Source of the DNA: a virus
Strand: one strand, 5' to 3'
Virus record (IMG/VR): IMGVR_UViG_3300013132_000163
Coordinates: 1-31,483 of that record
Length of the DNA: 31,483 bases
Below are positions 1-31,314 of the stretch, piece after piece. Positions within the stretch are counted from its first letter, which is position 1, and every line of letters starts with the position of its first letter. The notes beneath the pieces were generated by a model that worked only from the letters and a program-made list of their open reading frames with translations, searched no databases and was not told the DNA's origin. Made by a program: the position numbers and the translations under genes.

Positions 1-5
1 TCATT

Positions 6-33
6 TTGAAATTAAAAACATAATACTTATATT
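6..33 (+). promoter_or_regulatory. sigma70-like promoter of homing endonuclease gene
   Basis: TTGAAA at 6-11, a 16-nt spacer, then TATATT at 28-33. The same boxes with the same spacing occur at 26862-26889 in front of the polymerase gene. This fits a host-type vegetative promoter and differs from the ATATTTAT motif seen before the structural genes. Transcription would start near 40, giving a short leader before the GAGG at 54-57. Confidence 0.5.
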
Positions 34-61
34 AAGGAATAATAATTATATTAGAGGTATT

Positions 62-1438
62 ATGAAACGTCAAATCGATAAAACACCCGTCACTTGTAAA
101 CTATGTAATCAAATTTTTACAGTCGGTGGGTTTAGAACTCACCTACAAAATAAACATAAAGATTACAATACAAAAAAATATGTGGATCAATTTGGTGAAT
201 TTAGACCAAAAATAATACAAGAAAATCTATCCGATAATGCCGGTGATATTTTGTGTTTGGAATGTGGTGTTAAATTCAAATCACATAAAAAATTGATGCA
301 CCACATATCAAATCATAACATGAACTATGTGGATTACCACATCAAACATAGTTTTAATGGCATACCACCAACTTGTAAGTGCGGATGTGGTAATAATGTT
401 AAAATAATAAAAGGCGGTATAGTCACACCCAACGGTAGAATATATGCTAGAGATTTTTTATCGGGACACAATACTGCATTGCAGGTTGGTGTCCAATCCC
501 GTTCATTTGATAGTAGAATGAAAATGAGGGAGAGTGCAATAAAGAGAATGGAAAGAGACGGCAAAAGGTTTTCTCCCAAAATATCAACTGCACAACAAGA
601 ATTATTTGGGTATGTCAATTCATTGAAAAATGGTTTTTTACAAAATGATATAACTTTATTACACGGTAAGGAAATTGATATAATAAATCATAATCTAAAA
701 ATCGGTATTGAGTATAACGGATTAACCTTTCATAGTGATAAATACAAAAACAGACAATATCATATTTCAAAATTAAAAGAAATGGAATATCATGGATATA
801 GATTGATTTATATTTGGGAAGATTGGTGGGTTAGAAAACAAGAAATTGTAAAATCTATGATTAAAGTATTGTTAAATAAGGCGGATGAACGAATATATGC
901 TAGGAAATGTGAGATACGAGAAGTTGGTGATAATGAAGCAAAGATATTCTTAAACCAAACACATATTCAGGGGTCGTGTGTTTCAAAAGTAAGAATTGGT
1001 TTATTTTATGATAACGAATTGGTATCTATAATGACATTTGGAAAATTGAGAAAAGTTGTTGGTCATACATCGAAGGATGATAATTGGGAATTATTAAGGT
1101 TTAGTTCCAAACTAAATACAGTTGTTGTTGGTGGCGCTAGTAAATTACTAAATAATTTTATATTGAAGTATAAACCTATACGTATTTTATCGTATGCAAA
1201 TAGAGATTGGTCACTTGGTAATATGTATACTAAAATTGGATTTACTTTTAGTGGGAATACCGAACCTGGATATTTTTATGCAAAGGGAAAGAGACGATTT
1301 AATAGATTTCAATTTGCAAAACATAAACTGATTGGTATGGGATATGATGAAAATAAAACTGAAAGTCAAATAATGAATGAAATTGGTTATATGAAAATAT
1401 GGGACACCGGTAATAGCAAATTTGAATGGACTTCTTAA
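62..1438 (+). CDS. free-standing homing endonuclease, Vsr-like (EDxHD) with zinc fingers
   Basis: Probable site-specific DNA endonuclease of a mobile gene. The N-terminus has two C2H2-type fingers (CKLC...HLQNKH near residues 12-32, CLEC...HHISNH near 65-85), then a cysteine cluster CKCGCG and a later SGH, a module common in phage homing nucleases. The central region carries GKEID, IEYNG and FHSD followed by GYRLIYIWED, the pattern of the Vsr/EDxHD nuclease fold, with an acidic residue in each of the first two blocks and a His in the third. The C-terminal third (ILSYANRDWS, GYFYAKGKRRFNRF) looks like the GNAT-like domain often fused to such nucleases. The start is the ATG 4 nt after GAGG (54-57). 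It has its own promoter and terminator, typical of an inserted mobile gene. I see no flanking intron or split gene. The family call is good; the cleavage site is unknown. Confidence 0.8.
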   Translation: MKRQIDKTPVTCKLCNQIFTVGGFRTHLQNKHKDYNTKKYVDQFGEFRPKIIQENLSDNAGDILCLECGVKFKSHKKLMHHISNHNMNYVDYHIKHSFNGIPPTCKCGCGNNVKIIKGGIVTPNGRIYARDFLSGHNTALQVGVQSRSFDSRMKMRESAIKRMERDGKRFSPKISTAQQELFGYVNSLKNGFLQNDITLLHGKEIDIINHNLKIGIEYNGLTFHSDKYKNRQYHISKLKEMEYHGYRLIYIWEDWWVRKQEIVKSMIKVLLNKADERIYARKCEIREVGDNEAKIFLNQTHIQGSCVSKVRIGLFYDNELVSIMTFGKLRKVVGHTSKDDNWELLRFSSKLNTVVVGGASKLLNNFILKYKPIRILSYANRDWSLGNMYTKIGFTFSGNTEPGYFYAKGKRRFNRFQFAKHKLIGMGYDENKTESQIMNEIGYMKIWDTGNSKFEWTS

Positions 1439-8484: not shown

Positions 8485-8520
8485 ATGAAGACTTAATTCT
8501 ATAATTTTTTGGAGAAAATA

Positions 8521-10959
8521 GTGGCTAATGAAAGAATTGTAAGTCCTGGAGTGTTTACCAATGAAAATGATCTCTCATTTCTTCCACAAGGAATTGGAGC
8601 TATTGGTGCGGCATTGATAGGACCAACGCTAAAAGGACCAGCCTTCGTTCCTACTCTAGTTGAAGGATATAGTGACTTTGTGACTAGATTTGGTGGAACA
8701 TATGAACAATCATATTTACCTTACACTGCAAAAAACTACTTAAATAATGCCGGAAGTGCGACTATTGTTCGTGTTCTTGGATCTGGTGGATATTCAGTTA
8801 AACATCCTATTGCAATTGTTGCAACTGGTTCATGGGGTAAACAGTTAATATCATTTTTACACCCAACATTTGTTGTTACAGATAGCGATGCAACTTCATT
8901 ATTTGCTAAATCAACAATATCTGCAAATGCAAGTGGAAGTTTCAATCTTGTAATTTCCGGTGGATTCCAAACTGATCAAAGTGCATTTACAAATGCATCC
9001 GATGAAAATGGACAACAATTTTCACTATCAATAAATCCAGAAAGCACAGCATATATTGGTGATATGTTCGGATATAATCCCTATGGAACTCATGCAGTTT
9101 ACAATTATGTTGCTTTTAAGAAAGCCGCATCGTCATCACTTGCATCTGATCCATCAACCACAATTATTATGGAAACAGGATCAGCTGGTTCTCCGTGGGA
9201 TTTCACAAATGATTATCTTGAAGCATCTACACCATATATCACTTCTCAAAAAGTTGGTGGTTCAGCAACAAATCTTTTCCGTTTCCACACACTTTCTCAT
9301 GGTATTCATGCAAATTATGAGATTAAAGTTGGTATATCTAACATTCGTCCTGCTGGCACAATTGCTGGTTCTGAATACGGTGACTTTGATGTTGTTGTTA
9401 GATTTGTTGATCAATCTAAACTCCCACAGACACCATTTACAAGTGAAGATGATGATTTGAGACCATCTGTGGTAGAGCAATTTAAGTGTAATCTTGATCC
9501 AAATTCTCCAAAATATATCACAAGAGTTATTGGTGATAGATATTTGACAGTAAATGATGATGGAAAAGTTATCGTAAATGGTGACTATTCAAATAAATCA
9601 AAATATCTTCGTGTTGAAGCAACAGAGGCAGTTGCTAATGGTGGTGTATCACCAAATCTTGTTCCATTCGGATTCCGTTCTTTAACATCACCCATACCAA
9701 GTGGATTTTCACAACCTGCTGCAGCTTCTTATGTATCTGCACAAACAGCAGGTGGTTCTTACAATAGGAGAGTTTATTGGGGATTCAATTATGATTTCGT
9801 AAATACCGATAACTTTAATTATTTGAGACCACTTCCAATTATTGCAAACCAAACAACTGGTAGTAATACAGATTTCTATTTGGGCGATTACCAACAGGAT
9901 CCTGGTGCTAACTTCCCAACATCTGCAATTGCATATAGTTCATCAATAGATTTAACAACAAATACTGCACTGGATTCTCGTAAATTTATGGTGCCTTTCC
10001 AGGGTGGATTCGATGGTCATAAACCAAATCTTCAAAAGAAACTTGGTTCATATATTGAAGCCGGAAACACACAAGGATTTGATATATCAAATTCATCTAC
10101 AACCGGATATACTTCATATAAGAAGGCAGTCGCAACAGTTTCTAATGCAGACGAATTTGATATTAACATGATTGCAACTCCAGGTATTCTTCACTCATTG
10201 CATTCCGCATTGACATCATATGCTAAAGATATATGTGAAGACCGTGGTGATGCTTTCTATGTGATGGATTCAACTGGTATCAATGACAACATTGCAACCG
10301 CAGTTGCAACAACAGAAGGATTTGACAGTAACTACGCTGCAACATATTATCCTTGGGTTAAAATTATAGATATGGATAGAAACAAACCTGTTTGGGTTCC
10401 ACCATCAGTTGTTCTTCCGGGTGTAATCGCTTTCAATGACCGTGTATCTGCTGAATGGTTTGCTCCTGCTGGTTTGAATCGTGGTGGACTAACAGAAGTC
10501 GTTGAAGTGAAATCAAGATTGACACAAACAGAAAGAGATACATTGTATGAGGCAAGAATCAATCCTATTGCAGTTTTTCCTGCAACAGGCGTATGTGTGT
10601 GGGGTCAAAAGACATTACAAGGTCGCCCATCTGCACTTGACCGTATCAATGTTCGCCGTTTGTTGATTGCTTCCAAGAAGTTTATTGCTTCTTCTACGAG
10701 ATACCTTGTGTTTGAACAAAACACATCACAAACAAGAACTCGTTTCTTGAACATTGTGACACCATATCTTGAATCAATCCAACAACGACAAGGTTTGTAT
10801 GCTTTCCGTGTTATCATGGATGAATCAAACAATACACCTGACATCATTGACCGTAACATCCTTTATGGACAGTTGTTCTTACAACCTGCCAAGACCGCTG
10901 AATTTATCATTCTTGATTTCAACATTCAGTCTACTGGTGCTGCGTTCCCTGGTGCTTAA
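8521..10959 (+). CDS. gp18-like tail sheath protein
   Basis: 812 residues from the GTG at 8521, which has GGAG at 8511-8514. A TTG at 8509 would overlap that ribosome site and is rejected. The N-terminus ANERIVSPGVFTNEND is the typical sheath start (..SPGVxxxE). The C-terminal domain is also typical: RINVRRLLIASKKF, GLYAFRVIMDESNN, and ILDFNIQSTGAAF. This is the contractile sheath that surrounds the tube. It is longer than T4 gp18 (659), with the extra length in the variable middle (roughly 120-450), expected to be surface-exposed. A strong terminator follows. High-confidence family assignment. Confidence 0.93.
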   Translation: MANERIVSPGVFTNENDLSFLPQGIGAIGAALIGPTLKGPAFVPTLVEGYSDFVTRFGGTYEQSYLPYTAKNYLNNAGSATIVRVLGSGGYSVKHPIAIVATGSWGKQLISFLHPTFVVTDSDATSLFAKSTISANASGSFNLVISGGFQTDQSAFTNASDENGQQFSLSINPESTAYIGDMFGYNPYGTHAVYNYVAFKKAASSSLASDPSTTIIMETGSAGSPWDFTNDYLEASTPYITSQKVGGSATNLFRFHTLSHGIHANYEIKVGISNIRPAGTIAGSEYGDFDVVVRFVDQSKLPQTPFTSEDDDLRPSVVEQFKCNLDPNSPKYITRVIGDRYLTVNDDGKVIVNGDYSNKSKYLRVEATEAVANGGVSPNLVPFGFRSLTSPIPSGFSQPAAASYVSAQTAGGSYNRRVYWGFNYDFVNTDNFNYLRPLPIIANQTTGSNTDFYLGDYQQDPGANFPTSAIAYSSSIDLTTNTALDSRKFMVPFQGGFDGHKPNLQKKLGSYIEAGNTQGFDISNSSTTGYTSYKKAVATVSNADEFDINMIATPGILHSLHSALTSYAKDICEDRGDAFYVMDSTGINDNIATAVATTEGFDSNYAATYYPWVKIIDMDRNKPVWVPPSVVLPGVIAFNDRVSAEWFAPAGLNRGGLTEVVEVKSRLTQTERDTLYEARINPIAVFPATGVCVWGQKTLQGRPSALDRINVRRLLIASKKFIASSTRYLVFEQNTSQTRTRFLNIVTPYLESIQQRQGLYAFRVIMDESNNTPDIIDRNILYGQLFLQPAKTAEFIILDFNIQSTGAAFPGA

Positions 10960-10969
10960 TTAAAATAAA

Positions 10970-11001
10970 TGGGGAGTTGAAATACACTCCCCACATTTTT
11001 T
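10970..11001 (+). terminator. intrinsic terminator after tail sheath
   Basis: Stem TGGGGAG (10970-10976) with CTCCCCA (10987-10993), 10-nt loop, then CA and T6. Confidence 0.92.
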
Positions 11002-11010
11002 AATAGTCTT

Positions 11011-11018
11011 ATATTTAT
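11011..11018 (+). promoter_or_regulatory. ATATTTAT motif, putative late promoter of tail tube gene
   Basis: Exact copy 10 nt after the sheath terminator and 31 nt before the ATG at 11050. The terminator-then-motif layout allows separate, strong expression of the abundant tube protein. Confidence 0.7.
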
Positions 11019-11049
11019 GTAAAAGAACATTTTTAATTTGGAGATATAA

Positions 11050-11538
11050 ATGGCTGAATTACTCGATCCCAATGAAATTTTTTTCACACCGTTTGAACCA
11101 AAATTACAGAACCGATTTATTCTGTATGTTGAAGGCGTTCCTGCCTATTTGGTTAAAGGTGCAGGTAGACCAAACATCAGTTTCAACCCAATCACGCTTG
11201 ACCATATAAATGTGAAACGAAAAGTTAAGGGAAAGGGTGAATGGCAAGATGTTTCAATTAAATTGTATGATCCTATTGTTCCGTCTGCTGCTCAAGCAGT
11301 AATGGAATGGGTGCGTTTATCACATGAATCCGTAACAGGTCGTGATGGTTATTCTGACTTCTACAAGAAAGATATAACACTTCACATTCTTGGTCCGGTT
11401 GGTGATAAAGTTGAAGAATGGACACTCAAAGGTGCATTTATCACTGGCACAACATTTGGTGATATGGATTGGTCATCCGATGCATTTGTTGAAATATCTT
11501 TGACACTTGCATATGACTATGCTATCCTTCAATACTAA
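11050..11538 (+). CDS. gp19-like tail tube protein
   Basis: 162 residues, almost exactly the length of T4 gp19 (163). The pattern fits: an N-terminal FEPKLQNRFILYVEGVPAYL strand pair, then NITLDHINVKRKVKGKG-like and EWQDVSIKLYDPI strands, and the terminal FVEISLTLAYDYAIL. This subunit forms the inner tube through which DNA passes. Start is ATG with GGAG at 11041-11044. It directly follows the sheath gene, as in T4-type phages. Confidence 0.9.
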   Translation: MAELLDPNEIFFTPFEPKLQNRFILYVEGVPAYLVKGAGRPNISFNPITLDHINVKRKVKGKGEWQDVSIKLYDPIVPSAAQAVMEWVRLSHESVTGRDGYSDFYKKDITLHILGPVGDKVEEWTLKGAFITGTTFGDMDWSSDAFVEISLTLAYDYAILQY

Positions 11539-16934: not shown

Positions 16935-19900
16935 ATGTCATTGATGGACCTAAAATCAGATTTATCAAAATATAGATCGGAAGTTACTAGTGAAGATAAA
17001 GCAACAAATTATTCTTCTCAAGCAACTAATGCTAAAAACTTTGCAACAGTTCAACCTATTAGTGACAGTTTAATAAAACAAATTCCTAATATACAAAAAC
17101 CAAAAACAAGTGATGTTACTAAAAAACTTGGATCAACAGGTCTTGATGATATAAAAAAACCAAACATTAAAAGTATATCATCTAAATTGGATTCTACCAA
17201 ATTTGATGATATAATTAAACCAGAATCAACGGGAGGAAATCTTGAAGAACTGGCTGCAAATGCTGGTATTGATCCAATAAAAACTTCATTAGAAAGTTTG
17301 TTGGTAAATTCTATTTCACAATACTCACCTCAAACTTCACAAATTCGTAGTCAAGGATTGGGTTCTGCGCCATTGGAAAGTATAATGTCAAAGTTCTCCG
17401 AAATACGTAGAGAACAACTTTCAAGTAACCTAACCAATTCAGATATAGAAATAAATAGAACAACGCCTGGCCAAAATAATACAGAATCTAACATTTCAGT
17501 AGAAAGATCAATTTTATCAATAGACCGTCAAATAACAAGTCCTGAGATAAATACAAATTTATCTGAAACTACTAATAATATAACCAACCCAAATATAGTA
17601 ATAAACAGACCTGTATTGTCTTTTGATCGTAGTGGACAATCAATTGCAGACAATAAAGGTTTGGTCAATATAAGTGGAAATATAACCAATCCAAATTTGG
17701 TAATAAATAGAACCGCACTATCCATTGACAGAGAAGGTCAATCTGCAATTATAGATACAGAATTATTGTCCCCTATCAACAATGTAATAAATCCAAATAT
17801 ATCACTATTACGAAAAGAATTATCATTTGATAGAAATGAACAGACACCAAACATAATAACAAATACTATAAAACAAGGTTTGGTTGTAAATCCAGATATA
17901 AAAATAGTTAGGATAGAAGCTGGAACAAATCATTTTGAAGATGAAAGTGAATTAAATTACGATATTCCGCCTATACGCTTTGTTGCAACATCGAGATTAG
18001 ATAAATTAACACCATTGCAAGAAGTAACATCAGAAAGATATTCACAAAATTCTATACATGAAAAAGATAATAGTGAATTTAATCTTGATGGAATAACACC
18101 AACTAATCCTGGTGGTAGATATGAGAAACCGGTTCAATCTTTATTTTCAATAGTTGGTGTTCAAGAAGTAAATAATTTTACAAATATACACGCAATAGGA
18201 TTCAATGCTAATGCACAATTAAACGATACAAAGTTTGTAGGTGCATCACAATTTGTTTGGACTGGATTGGCAGACTCTGCACCTGCTGTTAATTTTATGC
18301 CAGATGTAAATTCATTTGGTTTTACTAAATTTGCACAAAAAGGAATAAGTAATTACAATCCTAATTCATCGGCATATGGTTTCATAAAAATACCATCAGT
18401 AAATTTCTTTGATGTTCAAGAAGGTTCGACTGTAAGCGGATTCACAACATTTGCAACTCCTTTACTAACGGAATACAATGTTGAATCATCTACATTTGGA
18501 TGGCCTGGAAAAAAAGATGCAGTTCCTGTTGTTAATTATTTTGATTTAAGTGGGCAATCAACAACAGAAGGATTTACTCCATTTCAATTGACATATGATA
18601 GTAAATACATTCCAGATGCATCATCATTTACTTGGCCTGGAACAAAAGATCAATCACCGGAAGTAAACTATTTTGATACAACTATTCCAAAAACAACTGC
18701 TGGATTTCATAAATTTGCAATATATCAAGATTCAAAATACATTTTAGATGTTTCGGATCATGTGTGGAAAGGGAACAGAGTTCAGGCACCTGTGGTTAAT
18801 TACTTTGATTCATCCAATGAATTTACAACTGCGGGATTTCAAACATTTAATGGATTTTTACAAAGTTTCTACAAAAAGGATTCATCTAGATTTGATTGGG
18901 ATGGTTTCGCATCACAAAACGCACCAGAAGTTAATTACTTTGATTTATTAGGCAAATATACAACAAACGGTTTTCATAAATTTGCCCAAAAATATGATAG
19001 TAAATACATACAGGATTCTTCTGATTTTGGTTGGATCGGTGCTAGAAGTGAATCCCCATTTGTTAATTATTTTGATATTGCAAATGAAAAAACTACTACG
19101 GGATTCCATACATTTGCACAAACATACGATTCAAAATATGTTCCAGAATCATCACTTTTTGATTGGAACGGATCAAGGGAAGATGCTCCTGTTGTAAATT
19201 ATTTTGATTTAACCGGTAAAAATACAACAGTAGGATTCCATTCATTTGCTGAATTGAGAGATACTAAATATATTCCAGAATCATCCGATTTTGATTGGAA
19301 CGGATCTAGAGACCAGGCACCATCTGTTAATTATTTTGATTTGATTAAAAAGAATACAACTGCGGGTTTCCATAATTTTGCAGAAATATATGATACCAAA
19401 TATATCCACGGTTCATCCATTTTTGATTGGGATGGTGTTCGTAATGATGCACCTGCTGTTAATTATTTTGACTTAAATTCAACTAATACAAAAATTGGAT
19501 TCCACACATTTGCACAAATATATGATTCAAAATATGTAGAAGAATCTTCCGTATTTGATTGGGATGGTGCAAGAAATGCTGCACCATCGGTTGATTTCTT
19601 TGACTTATCGAAAAAATTTACAACAGTTGGTTTTCATACTTTTGCACAAATAAGAGACACTAAATATATTCCAGAATCATCTGAATTTGATTGGGATGGG
19701 AAAAGATCAGATTCTCCAGAGGTAAATTATTTTGACTTGGGTAGTGATTTTACAACTGCTGGTTTTCATAGACTTGCAAGAATGTTGGATAGTAAATATG
19801 TAAAAGAGTCTTCACGATTTGATTGGGATGGATCTCCAGAAGAATCACCAGAGGTTAATTATTTTGATATTGGTGGTAAATTTACAACAATAGGGTTTCA

Positions 19901-22900
19901 TAGAAAGGCAAAAATCTACGATTCAAAGTATGTTCCAGATTCATCGGAATTTACTTTTGTTGGTAAATTTCCAAAGGCAGGAACTGATTATTTTGATAAA
20001 GAGGGAAAAAATCAAACGGGATTTACGTTAAACATTCAACCAAAGGGTTCAAGCAAACCACCTGAAACGGAGTATTTTCACGAAAGTTCATTTTATACAT
20101 TTGTAGGAAATAGACCATCAGAACCTGCAAACTGGTTTGAAAATACAAATGCCTCTGGATTTACACAAGATATAATGCCAAAGGGTTCAAGTAATCCGGA
20201 TACAGAATACGAACACGAAACTTCTACTTATGGATTTGCTGGTAGAAGACCTGGTGCTGGTGTAAACTATTTTGATCAACAGGTGAAAAATCAAACAGGA
20301 TTTACACTTGACATAATGCCAAAGGGATCTGGAAATCCTGATACAGAATATAAAACAGAATCATCTGTATATCCAATAGGTTTTGGATTTCAAGGTAAAT
20401 ACCCCCAACCACAAAATTTCTTTCCAGATTCAAATGCAACTGGATTTACATTAAACATATTCCCGAAAGGCGGTGCAAGGCCATTAGCGACTGAATATAC
20501 ACACGAAACATCTGGATATACTTGGGCTGGAACACCAATTGATGCACCAACTATAAATGCATTTGATATAAATGGGGTTTACACACAAGAGGGATTTCAT
20601 AGTTTTGCTGCTTTATATGACAGTAAATTTATTTTGGTTGATAAAAATAACAATAAAAAACACAGTTCAAAATTTGGTTGGGCTGGTGCTAGAAGTGAAG
20701 CACAATCTGTAAATTATTTTGGATTGAATAGACAGCCAATAGGTAAACAATATATTGACGATATTCAAGCGAATAATAGAACACAATCTGCTAGAGGATT
20801 TAATACATTCTTTACGGATAAAACACAGACAAAATTTAATTCATCGTTTTCTGCGTTCGCAACAGAAAATGGGCAAAATAAATCATCTGTTGTTGATATA
20901 CCTGTAACAAACTTTTTTGGTTTTAACTCAACAGTTCGTTCTGCATTTTTGGCAAAAATGACTTTAACAAATGGAACATTATATCCTATAATATCCCCAT
21001 CGTTAGATGCGAATGCTTCTGCAGTTGATCGTTCAAATGTAGAATCACGCCGAGGATCTTTAGAATTAAATAGAGACCGTGCTAAGTTTGAAAAATTTGC
21101 TCCTTTGTCTCTTGGTAAACGTCCTTGGGCAAATGGTAATTTATATTCAACACTTGACAATCAAATACCGAATATAAAAACAAAGGCACCCGCTGGTTCT
21201 TATGTTGAACCATACGAGGAACAATTACGTATAAAAACCAGTGATTTTGGTTATCTGCATAATTGGGCAATTAAAGGATCTACTTTTTCTAAATCACCAT
21301 TGGATGAACAATATGAAAAGTATTCTCTTCCGGATGCCGCCTACAATACTGATAGTGCAAGTCCACAGCCGTTTGTAATTCATGGTATACAGGGATCTAA
21401 AGTTGTAAAAAATGAAACAATCAAAAAGTTTTCGGAATTTGGAGACTTGGATGTTAAGAGAATTGAAAATTGGTTAAAGACAACAAAGGGTAAACTTTGG
21501 CAAGAACGTCAGAGTATGTTGTATAAGATGAACCCAATAGTTGATTATGATCCTGATGATTCTGGTACACAAGAATCTAATTTCCCAATAAATCATGTGT
21601 ATAATGTTGGTTCTTTGATAGATAACGTCAGAAATATGGGGCAGTTTCCAAAAGGAGATATTTTGGCTACACATGGAACTGCACAATCTTTGAACAAATA
21701 TGAAATAACCACCATTAAAATGAATCCAATGAATAATGGTGAATTAACAAAAATTCCTAGAGGGAATACACCATCTGATAGTAACAGATACCCATACAAA
21801 TATAATCGTTTAATTGCATTACTTGGTGAGTTGATTCCATCAGCAAATAAACCATTAAATGCAAAAATAACAGATACGCCTGCCGCTCCAACATCAACGA
21901 AGATATTGAGATTATCTGCGGCTGGAAGGGGTCCAAATTCATATATGGGTATGGGATCAACAGACATAAATCGTGCTAGTCATCCGTATTTGTCATATTA
22001 TAGAACTGACGGTATTCTTGCAAATTATCCAGAAACTGCACAGTTTCAAACATACTATGCCGGTGCATCGGTTGGAGACGGTGGATCAGATGACACATAT
22101 TCATATGCAAATAGATTGAAGAAACAAAATAATGAAACCGGTAATAAGTTTGGTGGTATATTAACTGCATTGTCATACCTGATAGAATCCGGATCTAAAT
22201 ACGAAAATGATACATCTACATATTCTTATGAAAACGGTGTATTAGATATTCAACCAAATGTTCTTGGGTTGATTAGACAGAAAGATGTATTCAATCCTAG
22301 ATATGTTCCATTTATTGAAAGATTAAGAAAAACAAATTTAGGTTTTACAAAAGGAGAAACTATTGCTTCTGTGCCACCATCCAACCAAAAACCAGTGGAT
22401 GCACCACATAAACAATTTTCAACTGTTGCATATAGTAAATTACAAAAGGCAAAAAGAGGAACGGGTGGTAGATCACATGACTTTAACGATTTCAGACATG
22501 ATATAGATAATGTGGATAATACTGATGGAAACAGAGGAACTGCACCTGGATATTTTTCAACCGATGCTAAGGTTGCAAGATACCATGAATATAATCTTGA
22601 AAAAAATCATGGATTTGGAAAACAAGGTGAACCCGGCAATCAAAGAAACTTACCATTCAAATCAAATATATTCTACGAAAAATCTACAAAAGGTAGTGGG
22701 AAATATGCCGTTCCAAAAGAAAAAGGACAAGGGTATAAATTTAGAGGTGATAGAATAAACATTATAGATTTTAAGAGAGGTAGCACTAATAAAATTGATA
22801 GTGATTATGTATATGAAACAGGAAGATATGCGGAAAGTTTACCTGGTGCACAAGATTTGATAGAATTTTACTTTACAACTGCGAGGATAAAGGGTAAAGA

Positions 22901-23708
22901 AGCAGCTGCAATAGTTTTTAGAGCTGCATTTGATACTATAACTGATAATCATAAACCAGGATGGTCTGCTGTTAAATACATGGGTCGTGCTGATCCAGTT
23001 TATATGTATGATAATTATGAACGTGATGTTAGCTTTGGTTTCACGATACATATAGGATCAAGAGATGAAATGAAAGCAACTTGGCGTAAGTTAAATTATC
23101 TTGCATCTTGGACTGCTCCAGAGTATGTTGGTCATTTTATCCGAGGTCCTTTATGCAGATTAAATATAGGACATCTGTTTAGAAAAACACCTGGATTCAT
23201 AAATTCATTGTCATATAGTTTTGATAATGTTGGTTCAACATGGGAAACTGCACAATTGAAAGAGGATTGGGATTTGGCGGGCTCATCTGCAAACGCATCT
23301 AAACCTGGCGTATTGCAATTGCCAAAAACAATTCAAGTATCTGTTGGATTTACTGTAATAGGTGTTTACAGACCACAATTTAACGGAACAATGTATCAAT
23401 TGTATGATGATGACCTTGCAGGAACTGCTGATGGTATTATACCAACTCCAGATACGGTTGTTAATTATTTCAGAACATTTGATAATGTTTCAATAACTGA
23501 TCCGGATGCTAAGGAATATACACCAATAGAAGCTGGTGCTACTAATGTTGCATTGATTGCAACAACATCGTCTGCTAATCCAGTTCCAGATGATTTAACA
23601 AATGATCCAGTTCTAAAGAGCATTGTTATAGCTGATGCTGCAACTGGTGTTATTTTAACTGCTCCAACGGGTTCAAGTGTTCCATTTACAGGTCCGGTTC
23701 CACCATAA
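16935..23708 (+). CDS. giant repeat protein with baseplate / tube-initiator-like C-terminus
   Basis: 2257 residues, the largest gene here. It starts MSLMDLKSDLSKYR, with GAGG at 16924. Residues about 170-320 hold a few copies of a first repeat, N-P-x-I-x-I-x-R-x-x-L-S-x-D-R. Residues about 450-1280 hold about 18-20 copies of a second, 44-residue repeat (VNYFD, TTxGFHxFA, YDSKYxxESS, FDWDGxR). A later region has WLKTTKGKLWQERQSMLYKMNP-like sequence near 1512, resembling a patch I recall from other environmental phage baseplate proteins. The C-terminal domain (about 1965-2145: MGRADPVYMYDNYERDVSF, RDEMKATWRKLNYLAS, FIRGPLCRLNIGHL) resembles baseplate or tail-tube-initiator proteins (gp48/gp54 role in T4). 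It lies between tape measure and hub genes. I infer a baseplate component in which the repeats form a long fibrous or ring element. Confidence 0.65.
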   Translation: MSLMDLKSDLSKYRSEVTSEDKATNYSSQATNAKNFATVQPISDSLIKQIPNIQKPKTSDVTKKLGSTGLDDIKKPNIKSISSKLDSTKFDDIIKPESTGGNLEELAANAGIDPIKTSLESLLVNSISQYSPQTSQIRSQGLGSAPLESIMSKFSEIRREQLSSNLTNSDIEINRTTPGQNNTESNISVERSILSIDRQITSPEINTNLSETTNNITNPNIVINRPVLSFDRSGQSIADNKGLVNISGNITNPNLVINRTALSIDREGQSAIIDTELLSPINNVINPNISLLRKELSFDRNEQTPNIITNTIKQGLVVNPDIKIVRIEAGTNHFEDESELNYDIPPIRFVATSRLDKLTPLQEVTSERYSQNSIHEKDNSEFNLDGITPTNPGGRYEKPVQSLFSIVGVQEVNNFTNIHAIGFNANAQLNDTKFVGASQFVWTGLADSAPAVNFMPDVNSFGFTKFAQKGISNYNPNSSAYGFIKIPSVNFFDVQEGSTVSGFTTFATPLLTEYNVESSTFGWPGKKDAVPVVNYFDLSGQSTTEGFTPFQLTYDSKYIPDASSFTWPGTKDQSPEVNYFDTTIPKTTAGFHKFAIYQDSKYILDVSDHVWKGNRVQAPVVNYFDSSNEFTTAGFQTFNGFLQSFYKKDSSRFDWDGFASQNAPEVNYFDLLGKYTTNGFHKFAQKYDSKYIQDSSDFGWIGARSESPFVNYFDIANEKTTTGFHTFAQTYDSKYVPESSLFDWNGSREDAPVVNYFDLTGKNTTVGFHSFAELRDTKYIPESSDFDWNGSRDQAPSVNYFDLIKKNTTAGFHNFAEIYDTKYIHGSSIFDWDGVRNDAPAVNYFDLNSTNTKIGFHTFAQIYDSKYVEESSVFDWDGARNAAPSVDFFDLSKKFTTVGFHTFAQIRDTKYIPESSEFDWDGKRSDSPEVNYFDLGSDFTTAGFHRLARMLDSKYVKESSRFDWDGSPEESPEVNYFDIGGKFTTIGFHRKAKIYDSKYVPDSSEFTFVGKFPKAGTDYFDKEGKNQTGFTLNIQPKGSSKPPETEYFHESSFYTFVGNRPSEPANWFENTNASGFTQDIMPKGSSNPDTEYEHETSTYGFAGRRPGAGVNYFDQQVKNQTGFTLDIMPKGSGNPDTEYKTESSVYPIGFGFQGKYPQPQNFFPDSNATGFTLNIFPKGGARPLATEYTHETSGYTWAGTPIDAPTINAFDINGVYTQEGFHSFAALYDSKFILVDKNNNKKHSSKFGWAGARSEAQSVNYFGLNRQPIGKQYIDDIQANNRTQSARGFNTFFTDKTQTKFNSSFSAFATENGQNKSSVVDIPVTNFFGFNSTVRSAFLAKMTLTNGTLYPIISPSLDANASAVDRSNVESRRGSLELNRDRAKFEKFAPLSLGKRPWANGNLYSTLDNQIPNIKTKAPAGSYVEPYEEQLRIKTSDFGYLHNWAIKGSTFSKSPLDEQYEKYSLPDAAYNTDSASPQPFVIHGIQGSKVVKNETIKKFSEFGDLDVKRIENWLKTTKGKLWQERQSMLYKMNPIVDYDPDDSGTQESNFPINHVYNVGSLIDNVRNMGQFPKGDILATHGTAQSLNKYEITTIKMNPMNNGELTKIPRGNTPSDSNRYPYKYNRLIALLGELIPSANKPLNAKITDTPAAPTSTKILRLSAAGRGPNSYMGMGSTDINRASHPYLSYYRTDGILANYPETAQFQTYYAGASVGDGGSDDTYSYANRLKKQNNETGNKFGGILTALSYLIESGSKYENDTSTYSYENGVLDIQPNVLGLIRQKDVFNPRYVPFIERLRKTNLGFTKGETIASVPPSNQKPVDAPHKQFSTVAYSKLQKAKRGTGGRSHDFNDFRHDIDNVDNTDGNRGTAPGYFSTDAKVARYHEYNLEKNHGFGKQGEPGNQRNLPFKSNIFYEKSTKGSGKYAVPKEKGQGYKFRGDRINIIDFKRGSTNKIDSDYVYETGRYAESLPGAQDLIEFYFTTARIKGKEAAAIVFRAAFDTITDNHKPGWSAVKYMGRADPVYMYDNYERDVSFGFTIHIGSRDEMKATWRKLNYLASWTAPEYVGHFIRGPLCRLNIGHLFRKTPGFINSLSYSFDNVGSTWETAQLKEDWDLAGSSANASKPGVLQLPKTIQVSVGFTVIGVYRPQFNGTMYQLYDDDLAGTADGIIPTPDTVVNYFRTFDNVSITDPDAKEYTPIEAGATNVALIATTSSANPVPDDLTNDPVLKSIVIADAATGVILTAPTGSSVPFTGPVPP
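17450..17895 (+). repeat. second coding repeat family (INR..LSxDR)
   Basis: Within the giant gene, units read NPNIVINRPVLSFDR, NPNLVINRTALSIDR and NPNISLLRKELSFDR, with degenerate copies before and after. The regular copies are about 40 residues apart. They are unrelated by eye to the FDWDG repeats downstream. Confidence 0.7.
18288..20725 (+). repeat. array of ~18-20 degenerate 132-nt coding repeats
   Basis: The repeats encode the 44-residue unit VNYFD-(x5)-TTxGFHxFA-(x2)-DSKY-(x3)-SS-x-FDWxG-(x6). For example the VNYFD codons at 19194 and 19326 are exactly 132 nt apart. Copies from about 18530 to 19940 are the most regular. After about 19970 the unit shifts to a variant (NQTGFTLxI-PKG-TEY-HE(S/T)S), then one classic copy returns near 20550-20710. 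The repeats are protein-level; nucleotide identity is moderate, so they are old. Confidence 0.85.
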
Positions 23709-23789: not shown

Positions 23790-24125
23790 ATGCCAAGTAG
23801 ATATGACCAAACGAGCATAATAACAAATGCAAAGAAAATAAATCCAGATGGAACAGAAAGAACTGTTCGTAGATTTTCCAGTTTGTTTTATCCTGAATTT
23901 ACAAGAATGCAAGATGTTCAAATTATCTCACAACAAGGTGATAGATTAGATTTACTTGCACTTGAATACTATTCCGATGAAACACTTTGGTATGTCATTG
24001 CTCATGCAAATGATTTAGGTAAGGGAACTCTTTTAATACCACCTGGAAAAGTAATACGAATACCATATTATGACGAATATCAAGGTATAACCGCCCTATT
24101 TAATTCATTCAATAGAGAAAGGTAA
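23790..24125 (+). CDS. LysM-like baseplate protein (gp53-like role possible)
   Basis: 111 residues. VQIISQQGDRLDLLALEYYSD followed by LWYVIAHANDL and LIPPGKVIRIP is a LysM-type fold pattern (here cited in pieces: QGDRLDLLALEYY, LWYVIAHAND, IPPGKVIRIP). In contractile tails LysM-like domains occur in small baseplate proteins, including T4 gp53, where they make structural contacts rather than bind peptidoglycan. Start is ATG after GAGG at 23781. The hub gene begins 8 nt downstream, supporting a baseplate role. The exact T4 equivalent is uncertain. Confidence 0.7.
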   Translation: MPSRYDQTSIITNAKKINPDGTERTVRRFSSLFYPEFTRMQDVQIISQQGDRLDLLALEYYSDETLWYVIAHANDLGKGTLLIPPGKVIRIPYYDEYQGITALFNSFNRER

Positions 24126-24133
24126 AATAAGTT

Positions 24134-26194
24134 ATGGCATATTCATTGGGAATAAGAAGCCCATTCGTTAAACCACCTGGCGCTGCTGCAGGTGAAGTTG
24201 CTGCTAGAGCAGCTTTATACGGTAGAGTAATACGATCATCTGCGGATGAAAGTGAACGAGCACTTTATTGGTCTTATGGAAAAAAATCTTGGGGTAGAAT
24301 AGGCGGTGGTGGCGCATCTCTTGGTTTTGCCGGAAGTCCACTAATGTCTTCTTCAAACGGTGATTTAGATTTGTATTCATCCAGAAGACATTTGCCTAAA
24401 TTACCATTGTTAAACTCAATCAGCTGTTTCAATGAGGGAGCACTTGGATCATTGATAAAGGGTTCATTCTCGTTTACAGTATATCCAGAAGTTAATATGA
24501 GTTCAATGGCATTGGGTGCAATTGAAGGGGCTTATTTTGTTCCTGGAAAAAATGTATCAATATCATTTGGATGGTCTGCTTATGCAAAAGCAGCTTGTGC
24601 ATCTAGATTTGCATTTAGTGGAATTATATTCAGTTTTAATTGGTCGGTTCAACAAGATATGTCAGTTAGTGCTACAGTTGAATGTGTTACTGCTGCAACA
24701 ATATCTGTTGGTGCTCCAGGTGCACAAAATAAAAAATCCGCGCCTGCTGGAGTTGCTGGCGCCGGTCCATCACCTGCTCCTGCCACACCCGCACCAGCCA
24801 CACCCTCACCTGCACCCGGTAGTGCAACATCTTCTGGTGCTGGATTTGCTCCTTTAGATCCTAAACAATTAACCATTCTTGGAACTAATTTGGTTACATG
24901 TATAGATCAAGATATGGCAGTTTTAGATCCAATATCGGCTGGAACAGCTGGATCGGGTGGTGGATCAGGAACACCACCACCTACACCTGGTTCACCAGAG
25001 GAATTATATGGAGTAAAAGCTGGACAAGTTTTAACACACCCAGCACCTGCTTCCGGAGAAAAACTGCTTTATTATGCCGTTGGTATTCCATGGCAACCAG
25101 ATCCACCAACAGAAGACGAAGTTATACCACCTATTGGCGGATCTTCTGGAACAGCAGGATCTTCTGGTACAGTAACACCGCCACCTGGTGGAACTTCTGG
25201 AGAAATAACAAAACCTATTGTTAAAAAGTATTGGTTTGTTGAATTTGGATCAATAGAAGATTTCATAAATGATCAATTTCAGGGTTCAAAAATAGGTAAT
25301 GTAACACGTGTTGATATAAAATTCAACTTAACAGACGGTTATCCTCACTTAAAATCTGCATTTCCAACTGAAATAATCTGGGGTCCAGTTGATTATGGCA
25401 CACTTAAAATAGAGGCACTCGGTAGACCACCATATACAAAATCGGCAAAATGGGCAGCTATCGGTAGTGTTTGTTTGGGAGTGGATTATGTTAGAGAAAC
25501 TTGGCGTAAATTTTTTAATGAAGAACAAACAAAATATAATGAAAAAAATATATTAGGATTTCTGAATGAATTATGTAAAAGAATAAATGAGGCATCCGGC
25601 GATCATTGGTCTTGGCATGCAACTGTAATAGAAGACAGTAATAGTTGTGGTGGCCCTGGAGTATCGCGTGCAGTTATTTCTGTTGAAGATGCAAATTACA
25701 AAGATGATGTTGGTCCTTTCAAATTTGTTGCTAGTGCAGGAAGACCTATGATAAAAACGGTTTCTATTTCATGCAAACCGCCTGGACCAATTACTACTGC
25801 TGCATTTGTTGCCGCTAGGGGTGGTAATCAAGAAACTGATGTTGCTGTTAGTGGTCAAACACCAGGACCTGGTCCAGGTGCAGCTATAACTAAATTGGAA
25901 GAAGAAGCAATGAGTTATGGTATAAATAAACAATGGGAAGATGCATATAGATCTGCGTTGATGTCATTGCGAAAATCATTTGATGGTTCCTGGATGAAAA
26001 GTGCTCTTTATCCGGTGGACTTTTCAGTTACAGTTGATGGTGTATCAGGATTTGAATTTGGTGAGGCCGTATCAACAAATCTTTTACCGTCAAGCTATGC
26101 TGGGAGAATGTTTTTCACCATAACAAAAATAAGTCATAGTGTAAATTCAGCAACATGGGAAACTACTATAAATACGGCGGCTAGATTGAAATAA
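24134..26194 (+). CDS. baseplate hub protein (gp27-like) with low-complexity linkers
   Basis: 686 residues. The C-terminus (YPVDFSVTVDG, NLLPSSYAGRMFFTIT, ISHSVNSATWETTIN) is typical of hub proteins of the gp27 / late-control D type, which form the tube-like centre of the baseplate. The hub frame is interrupted between about residues 200 and 365 by Ala/Pro/Ser/Gly-rich linkers (PAPATPAPATPSPAPG, GGGSGTPPPTPGSPEE, GGSSGTAGSSGTVTPPPGG) that tether a small extra segment (LYGVKAGQVLTH ... YYAVGIPWQPDPP). I see no lysozyme domain such as the one in T4 gp5. The linker DNA is more GC-rich than its surroundings. It overlaps nothing; the next gene starts 1 nt after its stop. Confidence 0.7.
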   Translation: MAYSLGIRSPFVKPPGAAAGEVAARAALYGRVIRSSADESERALYWSYGKKSWGRIGGGGASLGFAGSPLMSSSNGDLDLYSSRRHLPKLPLLNSISCFNEGALGSLIKGSFSFTVYPEVNMSSMALGAIEGAYFVPGKNVSISFGWSAYAKAACASRFAFSGIIFSFNWSVQQDMSVSATVECVTAATISVGAPGAQNKKSAPAGVAGAGPSPAPATPAPATPSPAPGSATSSGAGFAPLDPKQLTILGTNLVTCIDQDMAVLDPISAGTAGSGGGSGTPPPTPGSPEELYGVKAGQVLTHPAPASGEKLLYYAVGIPWQPDPPTEDEVIPPIGGSSGTAGSSGTVTPPPGGTSGEITKPIVKKYWFVEFGSIEDFINDQFQGSKIGNVTRVDIKFNLTDGYPHLKSAFPTEIIWGPVDYGTLKIEALGRPPYTKSAKWAAIGSVCLGVDYVRETWRKFFNEEQTKYNEKNILGFLNELCKRINEASGDHWSWHATVIEDSNSCGGPGVSRAVISVEDANYKDDVGPFKFVASAGRPMIKTVSISCKPPGPITTAAFVAARGGNQETDVAVSGQTPGPGPGAAITKLEEEAMSYGINKQWEDAYRSALMSLRKSFDGSWMKSALYPVDFSVTVDGVSGFEFGEAVSTNLLPSSYAGRMFFTITKISHSVNSATWETTINTAARLK

Positions 26195-26921: not shown

Positions 26922-28136
26922 ATGAAATTCCAACAAAAACCTTCGGTTTGCATTCCAATCATAAGCAACCCAAACAAACACCCGTCTGATGTTAGTATTA
27001 TCGGTATGTATTTTTTATTTACTGATGGAGAAGAACAATATATCAACTTTACACATCCAGATGAAATTGATAGTGATATTAGTTTACAAGATATTCATTT
27101 ACATTCCAAAACCCTTGTATTCAATAAAAAGACATTAGTGTATAACAATATAACCGATGGAATTGATGTAAATTCATATCTACATTACTACATATCAGAC
27201 CACATCAACCCACATGAATTTTATCCAAAAGGAATGGAAATACTTGCAAAAAAATTTTACAAGATAGAAGATTTAGGCCAAGTCATACCACTTTCAAAAC
27301 AATTTGAATGGGCGAGAAAGATTGCAAAATATGTTATGAGAGTTTACATAGAAAACCCTATTGATCAAAATTGTATTGATTATTGTAATGATTTCATAAA
27401 TGTATTCCATGAAATAGAAAAGAACGATATTCTTGTCGGTGATGAAACCAAGAAACAAAACTATATGTGGTATACGGCAACTGGTAGACCAAGTAATGCT
27501 TGGGATGGTTTTAATTTTTCTGCAATGAATAAGAAAGATGGTAGTAGAGATAAAATTCGTTCAAGATTTGAAGACGGTAAGATAGTTCAATTTGATTATG
27601 ATGCATTTCATATTAAACTTCTGGCAAAGATATTAGATTATCAATTTGAATATCATCCATACGAACAAATACAAAATGATTTACACATGGATATTGATTA
27701 TGATCAATTCAAAGGAAAGGTATTTCAAAACATATATGGGACAATAACTCCAGAATTTATGAACCACACTTTCTTCAGATCAGTTCAAGCACTTATAGAT
27801 GAAATGTATTCTCTATATGAAACTGATGGGTTAGTGAAATCTTGGTTTTATGAAAAAAGATTTAGTGATATTCAAGATGCAACACCAAATAAAGTATTCA
27901 ACTATGTTCTTCAATCATTAGAAACGGAATATAATGTCCGTAAGATAAAAAGTATTTTGCCACATTTGAAGAATAAGAAGTCTGTGTTTATGATGTATCT
28001 ATATGATGCCTTTATTTTTGATATTCATCCAGAAGAAATGAATTTAATTCATATATTACAGTCTGCATTTGAGACAGATAATATGTCAGTAAAAATTTAC
28101 TCTGGTGATGACTTTGGACACATTAAACAAATTTAG
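26922..28136 (+). CDS. compact family A DNA polymerase, exonuclease region degenerate
   Basis: 404 residues. The polymerase signature is present in order: TGRPS (187-191, pol I TGRLS), motif A DYDAFHIKLLA (225-235, pol I DYSQIELRVLA) with catalytic Asp225, motif B K264-x3-F268-x3-Y272-G273 (pol I K-x3-F-x3-YG), and motif C YDAFIFDI (361-368, pol I HDELVFEV) with Asp362. Differences: steric-gate Glu becomes His230, motif C His becomes Tyr361, its following Glu becomes Ala363, and the motif B Arg is absent. Residues about 20-140 follow the pol I 3'-5' exonuclease outline (VSIIGMYF..DGEEQYINFTHP, LVFNKKTLVYN), but I see none of its catalytic acids. The thumb region is very short. It could be a proofreading-free polymerase with a separate exonuclease elsewhere, or a specialised repair or translesion enzyme. 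Confidence 0.7.
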   Translation: MKFQQKPSVCIPIISNPNKHPSDVSIIGMYFLFTDGEEQYINFTHPDEIDSDISLQDIHLHSKTLVFNKKTLVYNNITDGIDVNSYLHYYISDHINPHEFYPKGMEILAKKFYKIEDLGQVIPLSKQFEWARKIAKYVMRVYIENPIDQNCIDYCNDFINVFHEIEKNDILVGDETKKQNYMWYTATGRPSNAWDGFNFSAMNKKDGSRDKIRSRFEDGKIVQFDYDAFHIKLLAKILDYQFEYHPYEQIQNDLHMDIDYDQFKGKVFQNIYGTITPEFMNHTFFRSVQALIDEMYSLYETDGLVKSWFYEKRFSDIQDATPNKVFNYVLQSLETEYNVRKIKSILPHLKNKKSVFMMYLYDAFIFDIHPEEMNLIHILQSAFETDNMSVKIYSGDDFGHIKQI

Positions 28137-29821: not shown

Positions 29822-30466
29822 ATGATAAAACTAATAGATATATTGAGGGAAATGGGAATACAGAAGGGCGCCTTTCACGGGTTCGGAATGAAACCACAAG
29901 ATATGAGAGTTGATACCTGTAATGTGGAATGGACAAGTCCTGATCAAGATACTGGATGTCCTGCCTTTTCAGATTCAACTAAAGTAACTGATGATGATAT
30001 TCAAAAGGCAATTACTTATTTGAATGAAGAAAACTTGAGCACATTGATTGCTTATTCGCGCGGTGGAGCAATACTACTGCAGGCATTATCAATGGGTGCG
30101 AAAAAGCCAGATACCGTTTACCTTGTTGCTCCTGCATGGAATAGACAATGGCCAACTGTAACTCTAACTGGTTCGGAAGTTAGTGGAAACGGTGCAATTA
30201 TTCATGGTGGTAGTGACAATATAGTTCCACTAAAACACTCTGTAATGTTAGCTAAAGAAAGTGGTATGCCATTATATGTTTTTCCTGGTGCAAATCATGT
30301 AAACATATTAAAACATAAAGACAATCCAACGGCAGGAAAGTGGATGAAAGATGTTAGAAGTGCTAAGTCATTTCATATAATGTCTGTTCTTCCAGATTGG
30401 GGTAAAACTGGTCAAGCATCTGCAGAAGAACTTAAAATACAAGAAGAATTTGTTAATACAATTTAG
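29822..30466 (+). CDS. alpha/beta-hydrolase-fold protein
   Basis: 214 residues. The fold signature is a nucleophile elbow AYSRGGA with Ser79 (the usual first Gly of GxSxG is replaced by Ala or Tyr), then Asp132 in HGGSDNIVP and His159 in FPGANHVNI, in the right order and spacing for an esterase, lipase or depolymerase type catalytic triad. The N-terminus MIKLIDILREMG is a short amphipathic leader with LRE, a possible prohead protease site. No signal peptide or cell-wall-binding domain is visible. Neighbours are small charged proteins and a ParB-like protein. It could be a packaged or late-acting host-modifying hydrolase. The substrate is unknown. Confidence 0.7.
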   Translation: MIKLIDILREMGIQKGAFHGFGMKPQDMRVDTCNVEWTSPDQDTGCPAFSDSTKVTDDDIQKAITYLNEENLSTLIAYSRGGAILLQALSMGAKKPDTVYLVAPAWNRQWPTVTLTGSEVSGNGAIIHGGSDNIVPLKHSVMLAKESGMPLYVFPGANHVNILKHKDNPTAGKWMKDVRSAKSFHIMSVLPDWGKTGQASAEELKIQEEFVNTI

Positions 30467-30477
30467 AGAGATTACTA

Positions 30478-31314
30478 ATGAAAAATTCATTGAAAAAATT
30501 AGTTAAAGAAGTTAAAGTGAAACTCAATGAAGATGAGGCACAAGAAGAACTGAAAACTATTCTTAAAAAAGATTATGTTGCATTTGTAAAAGAATTGGGT
30601 GATAACATAAAGGATCCTAAATTTGTTGATGCAATTAAATCATTATCTGGAACTGCACCTGTTAAAACATCTGCAATTACTCCGGTTTGCACAGATTTAC
30701 AACCAACACAAAATGAAGTTGTTATGGACAAATCATTAGCATATCCATTGAAAGATGCTGCAAGTGCAGAGGCAAATTTGAAAGGCGGTGTTGTTGCTCC
30801 CGGTGGTAGATCGATAGTAACTGGTGGCGGTGGTAAGTTTGTTATTGACGGACATCATCGTTGGTCACAAGTATTCTGTATAAATCCAGAAGCGAAGATG
30901 AAAGCTATTGATTTAACAGATATTAAAAAACCGCTCGAAGCACTTAAAGCAACACAAATTGGTATCGCTGCTCAAACCGGAACTGTTCCAACTGCAGCCG
31001 GTGGCGGTGTAAATCTTTTTACAGTTGGTGAGAGTGAATTGAAAAAATATGTAATTGATAACATACAGGACCCAGTTGTTGAAGTATTTAAGAAATACGG
31101 AAAGGGCGATACACCAGAAGCGATTGCGGATTACATTTGGGGTAATGTGGAGATATTGAAGAAACAAAGTCCACCAGTTGCAGGTGCTCCAAAGCGTGAT
31201 GTTATGCCTCAAACTGATGATGCACCCGATTGGGTTGCCAACACATTCAATGTGGAAAAAATGCCAGAAGGTGTTGTGAAAAGATTGAAAAAATTGATGA
31301 ACTACAATAAATGA
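30478..31314 (+). CDS. ParB-like nuclease-domain protein (paralogue B)
   Basis: 278 residues. GKFVIDGHHRWSQVF near residue 125 is the same DGHHRW motif as in the protein at 1567-2580, followed by a comparable INPEAKMKAIDL strand and a later GAPKRDVMP patch (GAPARIEMP in the other copy). The N-terminus MKNSLKKLVKEVKVKLNEDEA is a basic amphipathic leader with two (L)xE-like sites. Start is ATG after GAGAG. Last gene of its cluster, followed by a very stable terminator. It is probably a virion-associated or injected nuclease-fold protein; a partition role is unlikely without ParA or HTH elements. Confidence 0.65.
   Translation: MKNSLKKLVKEVKVKLNEDEAQEELKTILKKDYVAFVKELGDNIKDPKFVDAIKSLSGTAPVKTSAITPVCTDLQPTQNEVVMDKSLAYPLKDAASAEANLKGGVVAPGGRSIVTGGGGKFVIDGHHRWSQVFCINPEAKMKAIDLTDIKKPLEALKATQIGIAAQTGTVPTAAGGGVNLFTVGESELKKYVIDNIQDPVVEVFKKYGKGDTPEAIADYIWGNVEILKKQSPPVAGAPKRDVMPQTDDAPDWVANTFNVEKMPEGVVKRLKKLMNYNK

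Follow-up and report, generated by a model that had tools for sequence, protein, structure and literature searches.

The locus and its genes

The analysed stretch, the window, is a 31-kb fragment of a viral genome (31,483 nucleotides) in which gene starts were set mechanically. A T4-type contractile tail module extends across it, with genes for a PhoH-like ATPase, a neck protein, the sheath, the tube and a hub protein of the T4_baseplate family. These are followed by the tape measure gene, a gene for a protein of 2257 residues, a gp53/LysM-type gene, a gene for a 686-aa protein and further genes (Table 1). The 686-aa protein, assigned as hub by position only, had no family match. The order tape measure, repeat protein, LysM/gp53 and hub is common to the relatives examined. 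The first-pass annotation was right to place the 2257-aa gene after the tape measure gene and ahead of the hub gene.

Table 1. Positions in the window of the tail genes and of the features within the 2257-aa protein
Feature	Position	Strand	Basis
Tail sheath (816 aa) and tail tube (162 aa) genes, upstream	8509..11538	+	PHROG 23 and 4542
Tape measure protein, 1363 aa	12793..16884	+	PHROG 58/305/4372 tape measure
2257-aa repeat/tube-initiator-like protein, whole gene	16935..23708	+	ORF; Mel-JY01 homologue
N-terminal tip, 'MSLMDLKSDLSKYRS' / MSLMDLKSDLSKYR, 14-residue motif	16935..16979	+	Conserved in most array-bearing relatives
K-type units, ~20 aa, 'TKLDDI..KPI..L', 2 copies, residues 66-96	17130..17222	+	Motif
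NP/SP-type units, ~34 aa, 'NIxNPNIxIxRxxLSFDRxxQSP', about 5 copies, residues 186-330	17490..17924	+	Motif
FDWDG array, 20 units, mostly 44 aa, residues 412-1308	18168..20858	+	Iterated profile, DNA repeat
Middle region, conserved, residues 1425-1930, partly helical (moderate confidence)	21207..22724	+	61-relative alignment, AlphaFold2
C-terminal tube-initiator-like domain, residues 1933-2168	22731..23438	+	Profile matches, Foldseek, VIA-align
gp53/LysM-type baseplate protein, directly downstream of the 2257-aa gene	23790..24125	+	phrog_7145 baseplate wedge, E 2.5e-10
686-aa protein, hub by position only	24134..26194	+	Gene order as in relatives

A homing/HNH endonuclease gene (window 2-1438; phrog_3339, E 5e-98) borders the tail module, and a gene resembling it is found just ahead of the tail genes in L003 (21-1361). 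The proteins encoded at 1567-2580 and 30478-31314, which flank the module, both contain a ParB-like nuclease motif, DGHHRW, and show weak matches to phrog_2859. A 404-aa protein among the baseplate genes (26922-28136), for which we found no Pfam match above the cut-off and no PHROG match, contains stretches that by eye resemble motifs of family-A DNA polymerases ('QFDYDAFHIKLLAK' and 'FKGKVFQNIYG'). A counterpart occupies the equivalent place in the uncultured phage LR756508 (L003, 16082-17440), and a 408-aa ORF lies there in Microcystis phage Mel-JY01. Also by eye, a small protein (29822-30466) has an alpha/beta-hydrolase-like stretch, AYSRGGAILL.

The repeat arm and the C-terminal domain

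An iterated profile resolves 20 units in the FDWDG array, in agreement with the first count of about 18-20 copies of 44 residues. Their spacing is 37-52 aa and exactly 44 in most, and a simple motif split cuts the part between residues 489 and 973 into runs of exactly 44 aa, with a single exception of 45. The same annotation had described two unrelated repeat arrays; both are real, but the kinds of unit are three, of ~20, ~34 and 44 aa. K-type units reach 6 copies in relatives. At the DNA level the FDWDG copies recur at a spacing of 132 nt and are 60-75% identical, which makes the array an old one. Chance is not its origin, since a profile scan found the repeat in 94 other viral contigs, the protein of Mel-JY01 aligns over 98% and the phase of the units is conserved. 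Orthology of unit positions is partial, with an identity of 0.37-0.47 at the same position versus 0.19-0.27 elsewhere. The N-terminal tip motif is present in 47 of 50 relatives with a tape measure of at least 1150 aa, but in only 1 of 79 whose tape is below 700 aa; most of those with a tape of 700-1150 aa have it in slightly varied form.

In an alignment of six FDWDG units 29 of 264 positions are invariant, yet AlphaFold2, run on six units with 72 aligned sequences, returned no secondary structure (pLDDT 58, pTM 0.18), a monomer prediction with which a trimeric fibre fold is compatible. Repeats that are conserved and still lack a fold of their own point to binding motifs that would become ordered upon contact with a partner. 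From the model, the FDWDG array thus resembles a chain of successive binding motifs rather than a rigid skirt or fibre. PHROG matches of the repeats were discarded as inflated by repetition because they come from pieces of ~20 residues, none of which passes alone as a stretch in the window protein; the matches listed are of unknown function, except for one to a 'thioredoxin domain' in two members.

For the C-terminal domain AlphaFold2 with 61 relatives gave a confident tube-like fold (model residues 528-743 mostly at pLDDT 80-93). VIA-align superimposed it on baseplate and tail-tube initiator chains with Z 8.1-9.6 over 142-162 residues. The top match was P1 9ay5_G (Z 9.6, rmsd 3.2 over 149 residues), followed by 9f4a_BL (9.1), PVC 6j0n_b (8.7), AFP 6rao_G (8.4), pyocin R2 6u5b_g (8.4), the T4 baseplate chain 5iv5_BE (8.3) and cyanophage A-1(L) 8kea_P (8.1). 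Foldseek agreed on initiators with E values of 5e-5 to 1e-3. Z scores of 8-9 are modest taken alone. However, the best structural matches are nearly all initiator chains (P1, a KP1-type phage, PVC/AFP, pyocin R2, T4 and A-1(L)), the list is coherent, and the gene stands where a tube initiator is expected, after the tape measure and before LysM and hub. By predicted fold the domain is thus tube initiator-like, as the first-pass annotation had proposed. No match to described initiators was found by sequence in Pfam, NCBIfam or PDB, and PHROG matches of single members were at chance level, a result with which membership among the initiators is compatible. The likeness to T4 gp48/gp54, pyocin R2, PVC/AFP, A-1(L) and P1 initiators lies in the C-terminal fold, and in P2-like gene orders the initiator likewise stands between the tape measure and a LysM protein. 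Whereas the aligned chains of known initiators measure about 160-290 residues, here the domain is preceded by the middle region and an arm of ~1300 residues.

The only named relative of the whole protein is a 'hypothetical protein' of Mel-JY01 (WWT39329.1, 2255 aa, 22 units), which is 38% identical over 98% of the length and lies in the same gene order. The C-terminal domain occurs in at least 566 stretches of the viral collection; all intact repeat proteins carry it, and none of the other ORFs at the repeat-bearing loci contained the FDWDG repeat. Its ~240 residues also occur in Flavobacterium phage immuto (716 aa), Rhodothermus phage RM378 (458 aa), the 484-kb LR756508 (1579 aa) and two gut phages. 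Immuto and LR756508 share domain and gene order with the window but have no FDWDG array; LR756508 carries another, acidic repeat array instead, and RM378 has the domain without an array. Outside the clade of the window the arm is built from different repeats, 14 to 56 aa long, or is all but missing. Unrelated arrays occupy the equivalent place on the ring protein in L145, L136, L132, L141 and L003, among them units of 17 aa (PGVGTGTPPNSYENEPL), 16 aa (GRHTEGKEV), ~15 aa (TPxKPGKxV) and ~20 acidic residues. The L145 array, whose copies are nearly identical, was recently expanded, and its tape is not longer.

A single-protein scan with the whole 2257-aa query gave no match, a query with the LR756508 protein returned no relatives, and neither the protein as a whole nor its C-terminal part is covered by any family in Pfam, NCBIfam or PHROG. 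The earlier remark on the lack of a named family is thereby supported for the whole protein and its core. The search that could have refuted the first reading led to no described fibre family and placed the C-terminal domain with tail proteins. The bacterial genome contigs searched contained no relative and thus provided no link to a prophage or host.

Unit number and tape measure length

Copy number varies among the relatives and, within this clade, follows the length of the tape measure protein, which serves here as a proxy for tail length. In 45 relatives with intact neighbouring genes both unit number and array length rise with tape length. Among 35 diverged members free of inserts, the length from the N-terminus to the end of the array correlated with tape length at r=0.93, phylogenetic contrasts retained r=0.84 (p=4e-10), and 0 of 1000 tip permutations were as high. 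The slope corresponds to 26 tape residues per 44 aa of arm (CI 22-31). When units of every kind and size (17 to over 70 aa) were counted, their total in 46 members gave r=0.91 (contrasts r=0.70, p=5e-8) and 22.0±3.0 tape residues per unit (RMA 24.2). Broken down by kind, the tape residues per unit (±SE) were 23.3±4.0 for K units (~20 aa), 17.5±2.8 for SP units (17-34 aa) and 21.1±2.7 for 44-aa units (44-70 aa), with a lower contrast coefficient, 8.7, for K units.

The number of units predicted tape length better than the number of residues (standardised, 0.81 versus 0.15). Residue length alone was rejected as predictor because it was off by 85-220 aa in most insert-bearing members, where unit counts fit: units lengthened by inserts to 57-70 aa and more keep the unit rule and break the residue rule. 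In L374, L322 and L341, 8-10 long units are preceded by 10-13 short 17-aa 'DKxxSSPDVF' units, and the totals fit. For 11 members outside the fit, tape length was predicted with an RMSE of 32 aa from all units and of 109 aa from 44-aa units only, a prediction that is not fully blind since the same data had served to set up the unit rules, with the SP rule written once L374 had been seen. That rule finds 3.6 units per protein compared with 0.8 in shuffled sequence. Inserts of ~12 to 85 aa between or inside 44-aa units were seen in L068, L069, L071, L053, L038, L050 and L063, which have 16-19 units.

Removal of any of four subclades left r at 0.86-0.94, and the lower or the upper half of the range alone gave a slope of ~15. 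The scaling belongs to this clade. It fails outside (798 aa/1009 in L133, 764/950 in L148, 962/1889 in L186 and 1017/2038 in L183, with tape length as the second figure), where the exceptions are long-taped relatives with other repeat types or short arrays; the clearest are L183 and L186, with short arms and tapes of 2038 and 1889 aa. L145 and L143 have nearly equal tapes and arrays ~150 aa apart, and L156 is off the fit by about 150 aa. Indels in the tape fall in several segments; in the closest pair, L012 and L015, a 45-aa difference lies near the tape C-terminus, outside the hydrophobic tape. In the contig of L080 (G005 C1:6315-7202) the tape measure frame contains an in-frame TAG, which may reflect recoding, an intron or a sequencing error.

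Possible roles of the arm

In T4 a tape of 590 residues corresponds to a tail of 925 Å with 138 gp19 in 23 rings (PMC8570332, PMC3004832), and in phage G a tape of 2893 residues corresponds to 4500 Å with a rise of 41.5 Å (PMC8570332); a customary figure is 0.15 nm per residue (PMC9040626). From T4 and phage G we calculate about 26 tape residues per ring, and the slope observed here fits one unit per ring. The intercept of the fit is large (813 aa), so that full extension of the 1363-aa tape would imply about 51 rings, for which ~27 units were counted. The ruler may be a part of the tape only, or some rings are bare, or units were missed.

T4 gp48 and gp54, present in six copies each, form the platform for tube polymerisation (PMC3004832). 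We give about an even chance to the reading that the 2257-aa protein is a hexameric tube initiator with six arms that run along the tail as ladders of motifs, one motif per ring. Six C-terminal domains would then make up the baseplate ring on which the tail tube begins, and the N-terminal ~1300 residues of each copy would extend unfolded along the growing tail, with the conserved N-terminal tip marking the far end. Along the chain, three or four kinds of short binding motif would be arranged as a ladder. Each motif, long or short, would dock to the tube or sheath subunits of one tail ring, most likely on the outer face of the tube. As the tape sets the number of rings, one motif per ring would make motif number evolve together with the tape measure. 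Somewhat short of even is the chance of the fuller version, in which the arms are co-extensive with the tape along a contractile tail and couple the baseplate to the neck or help to count rings, the kinds of unit being interchangeable and only their number selected.

A position of the arms inside the lumen is unlikely if the protein is hexameric. By our own estimate a bore of ~40 Å offers about 41 kDa per ring of ~40 Å height at full packing, and six 44-aa chains (about 29 kDa) plus the tape would overfill it; units of 70 aa would aggravate this, which makes the outside the most likely position. A tail-long element of this sort has a parallel in the outer coil of phage G, which runs along the tail and is thought to be anchored at the baseplate or tail tube and at the neck (PMC8570332); no phage G record matched the 2257-aa protein in the homologue search. 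Tape measure proteins such as T4 gp29 and lambda gpH scale with the tail themselves, whereas the array tracks tape length from another gene and does not take the place of the tape. It is also predicted by AlphaFold2 to lack helix, unlike the long, predominantly alpha-helical tape measure, which is encoded separately.

The chief rival, which we hold to be unlikely, is that the unfolded array coats the hydrophobic tape with one unit per ~22-26 residues, so that the tape stays soluble and stretched out until the tube encloses it, acting like the lambda gpG/GT chaperones and built into the initiator ring. It shares most predictions with the ladder of ring-binding motifs, including the scaling of units with the tape. 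The repeat gene adjoins the tape gene, the aromatic-rich units could cover hydrophobic helices, and no PHROG tail-assembly chaperone match was found among the proteins scanned between the tube and tape genes. However, the whole tape length tracks the array better (contrasts 0.84) than any single segment does (at most 0.63, with 0.77 for everything beyond residue 720), which fits tail geometry better than binding to one segment, and a search of tape hydropathy over 20-30 residues revealed no periodicity of ~22-26 residues, the strongest lags being 49-64.

Less probable still, the six arms could act as polymerisation antennae that gather soluble tube or sheath subunits for the growing tail, similar to the repeated actin-binding motifs of actin nucleators, with larger stocks for longer tails. 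Attachment to the initiator ring and the many similar unfolded motifs would suit this role, but nothing in such a role requires one unit for each ring, nor that units of 20, 34 and 44-70 aa count equally.

The first-pass annotation had considered a baseplate skirt, a central fibre or a host-contact element. The size of the protein, its repeats and the long inserts within units of some relatives (L068 group) are in line with such a structure, but the units show no autonomous fold in AlphaFold2, no fibre, lectin or spike family was matched, and the unit count follows tape length within the clade. In addition, the N-terminal tip is a conserved 14-residue motif and shows no sign of the rapid change that is typical of receptor-binding tips, and there are relatives in which the same ring protein bears different repeats or hardly any. 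We therefore regard this role as very doubtful. Least probable is a correlated history without contact, in which the length changes of the two genes would simply coincide in a few lineages: although a few deep splits hold much of the variance, the half-range slopes are low and the scaling is lost outside the clade, contrasts, permutations, held-out prediction and subclade removal all keep the relation, and the lengths of the hub and of the C-terminal part do not track the tape.

Phage tail length is explained by a single ruler, the tape measure within the tube. A second protein that follows this ruler with one motif per ~22-26 tape residues would act as a co-ruler, as a tether spanning the tail or as a chaperone of the tape, and to our knowledge none of these has been described for tube initiators. 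The family, previously unnamed, is widespread among environmental viruses, with at least 566 matching stretches.
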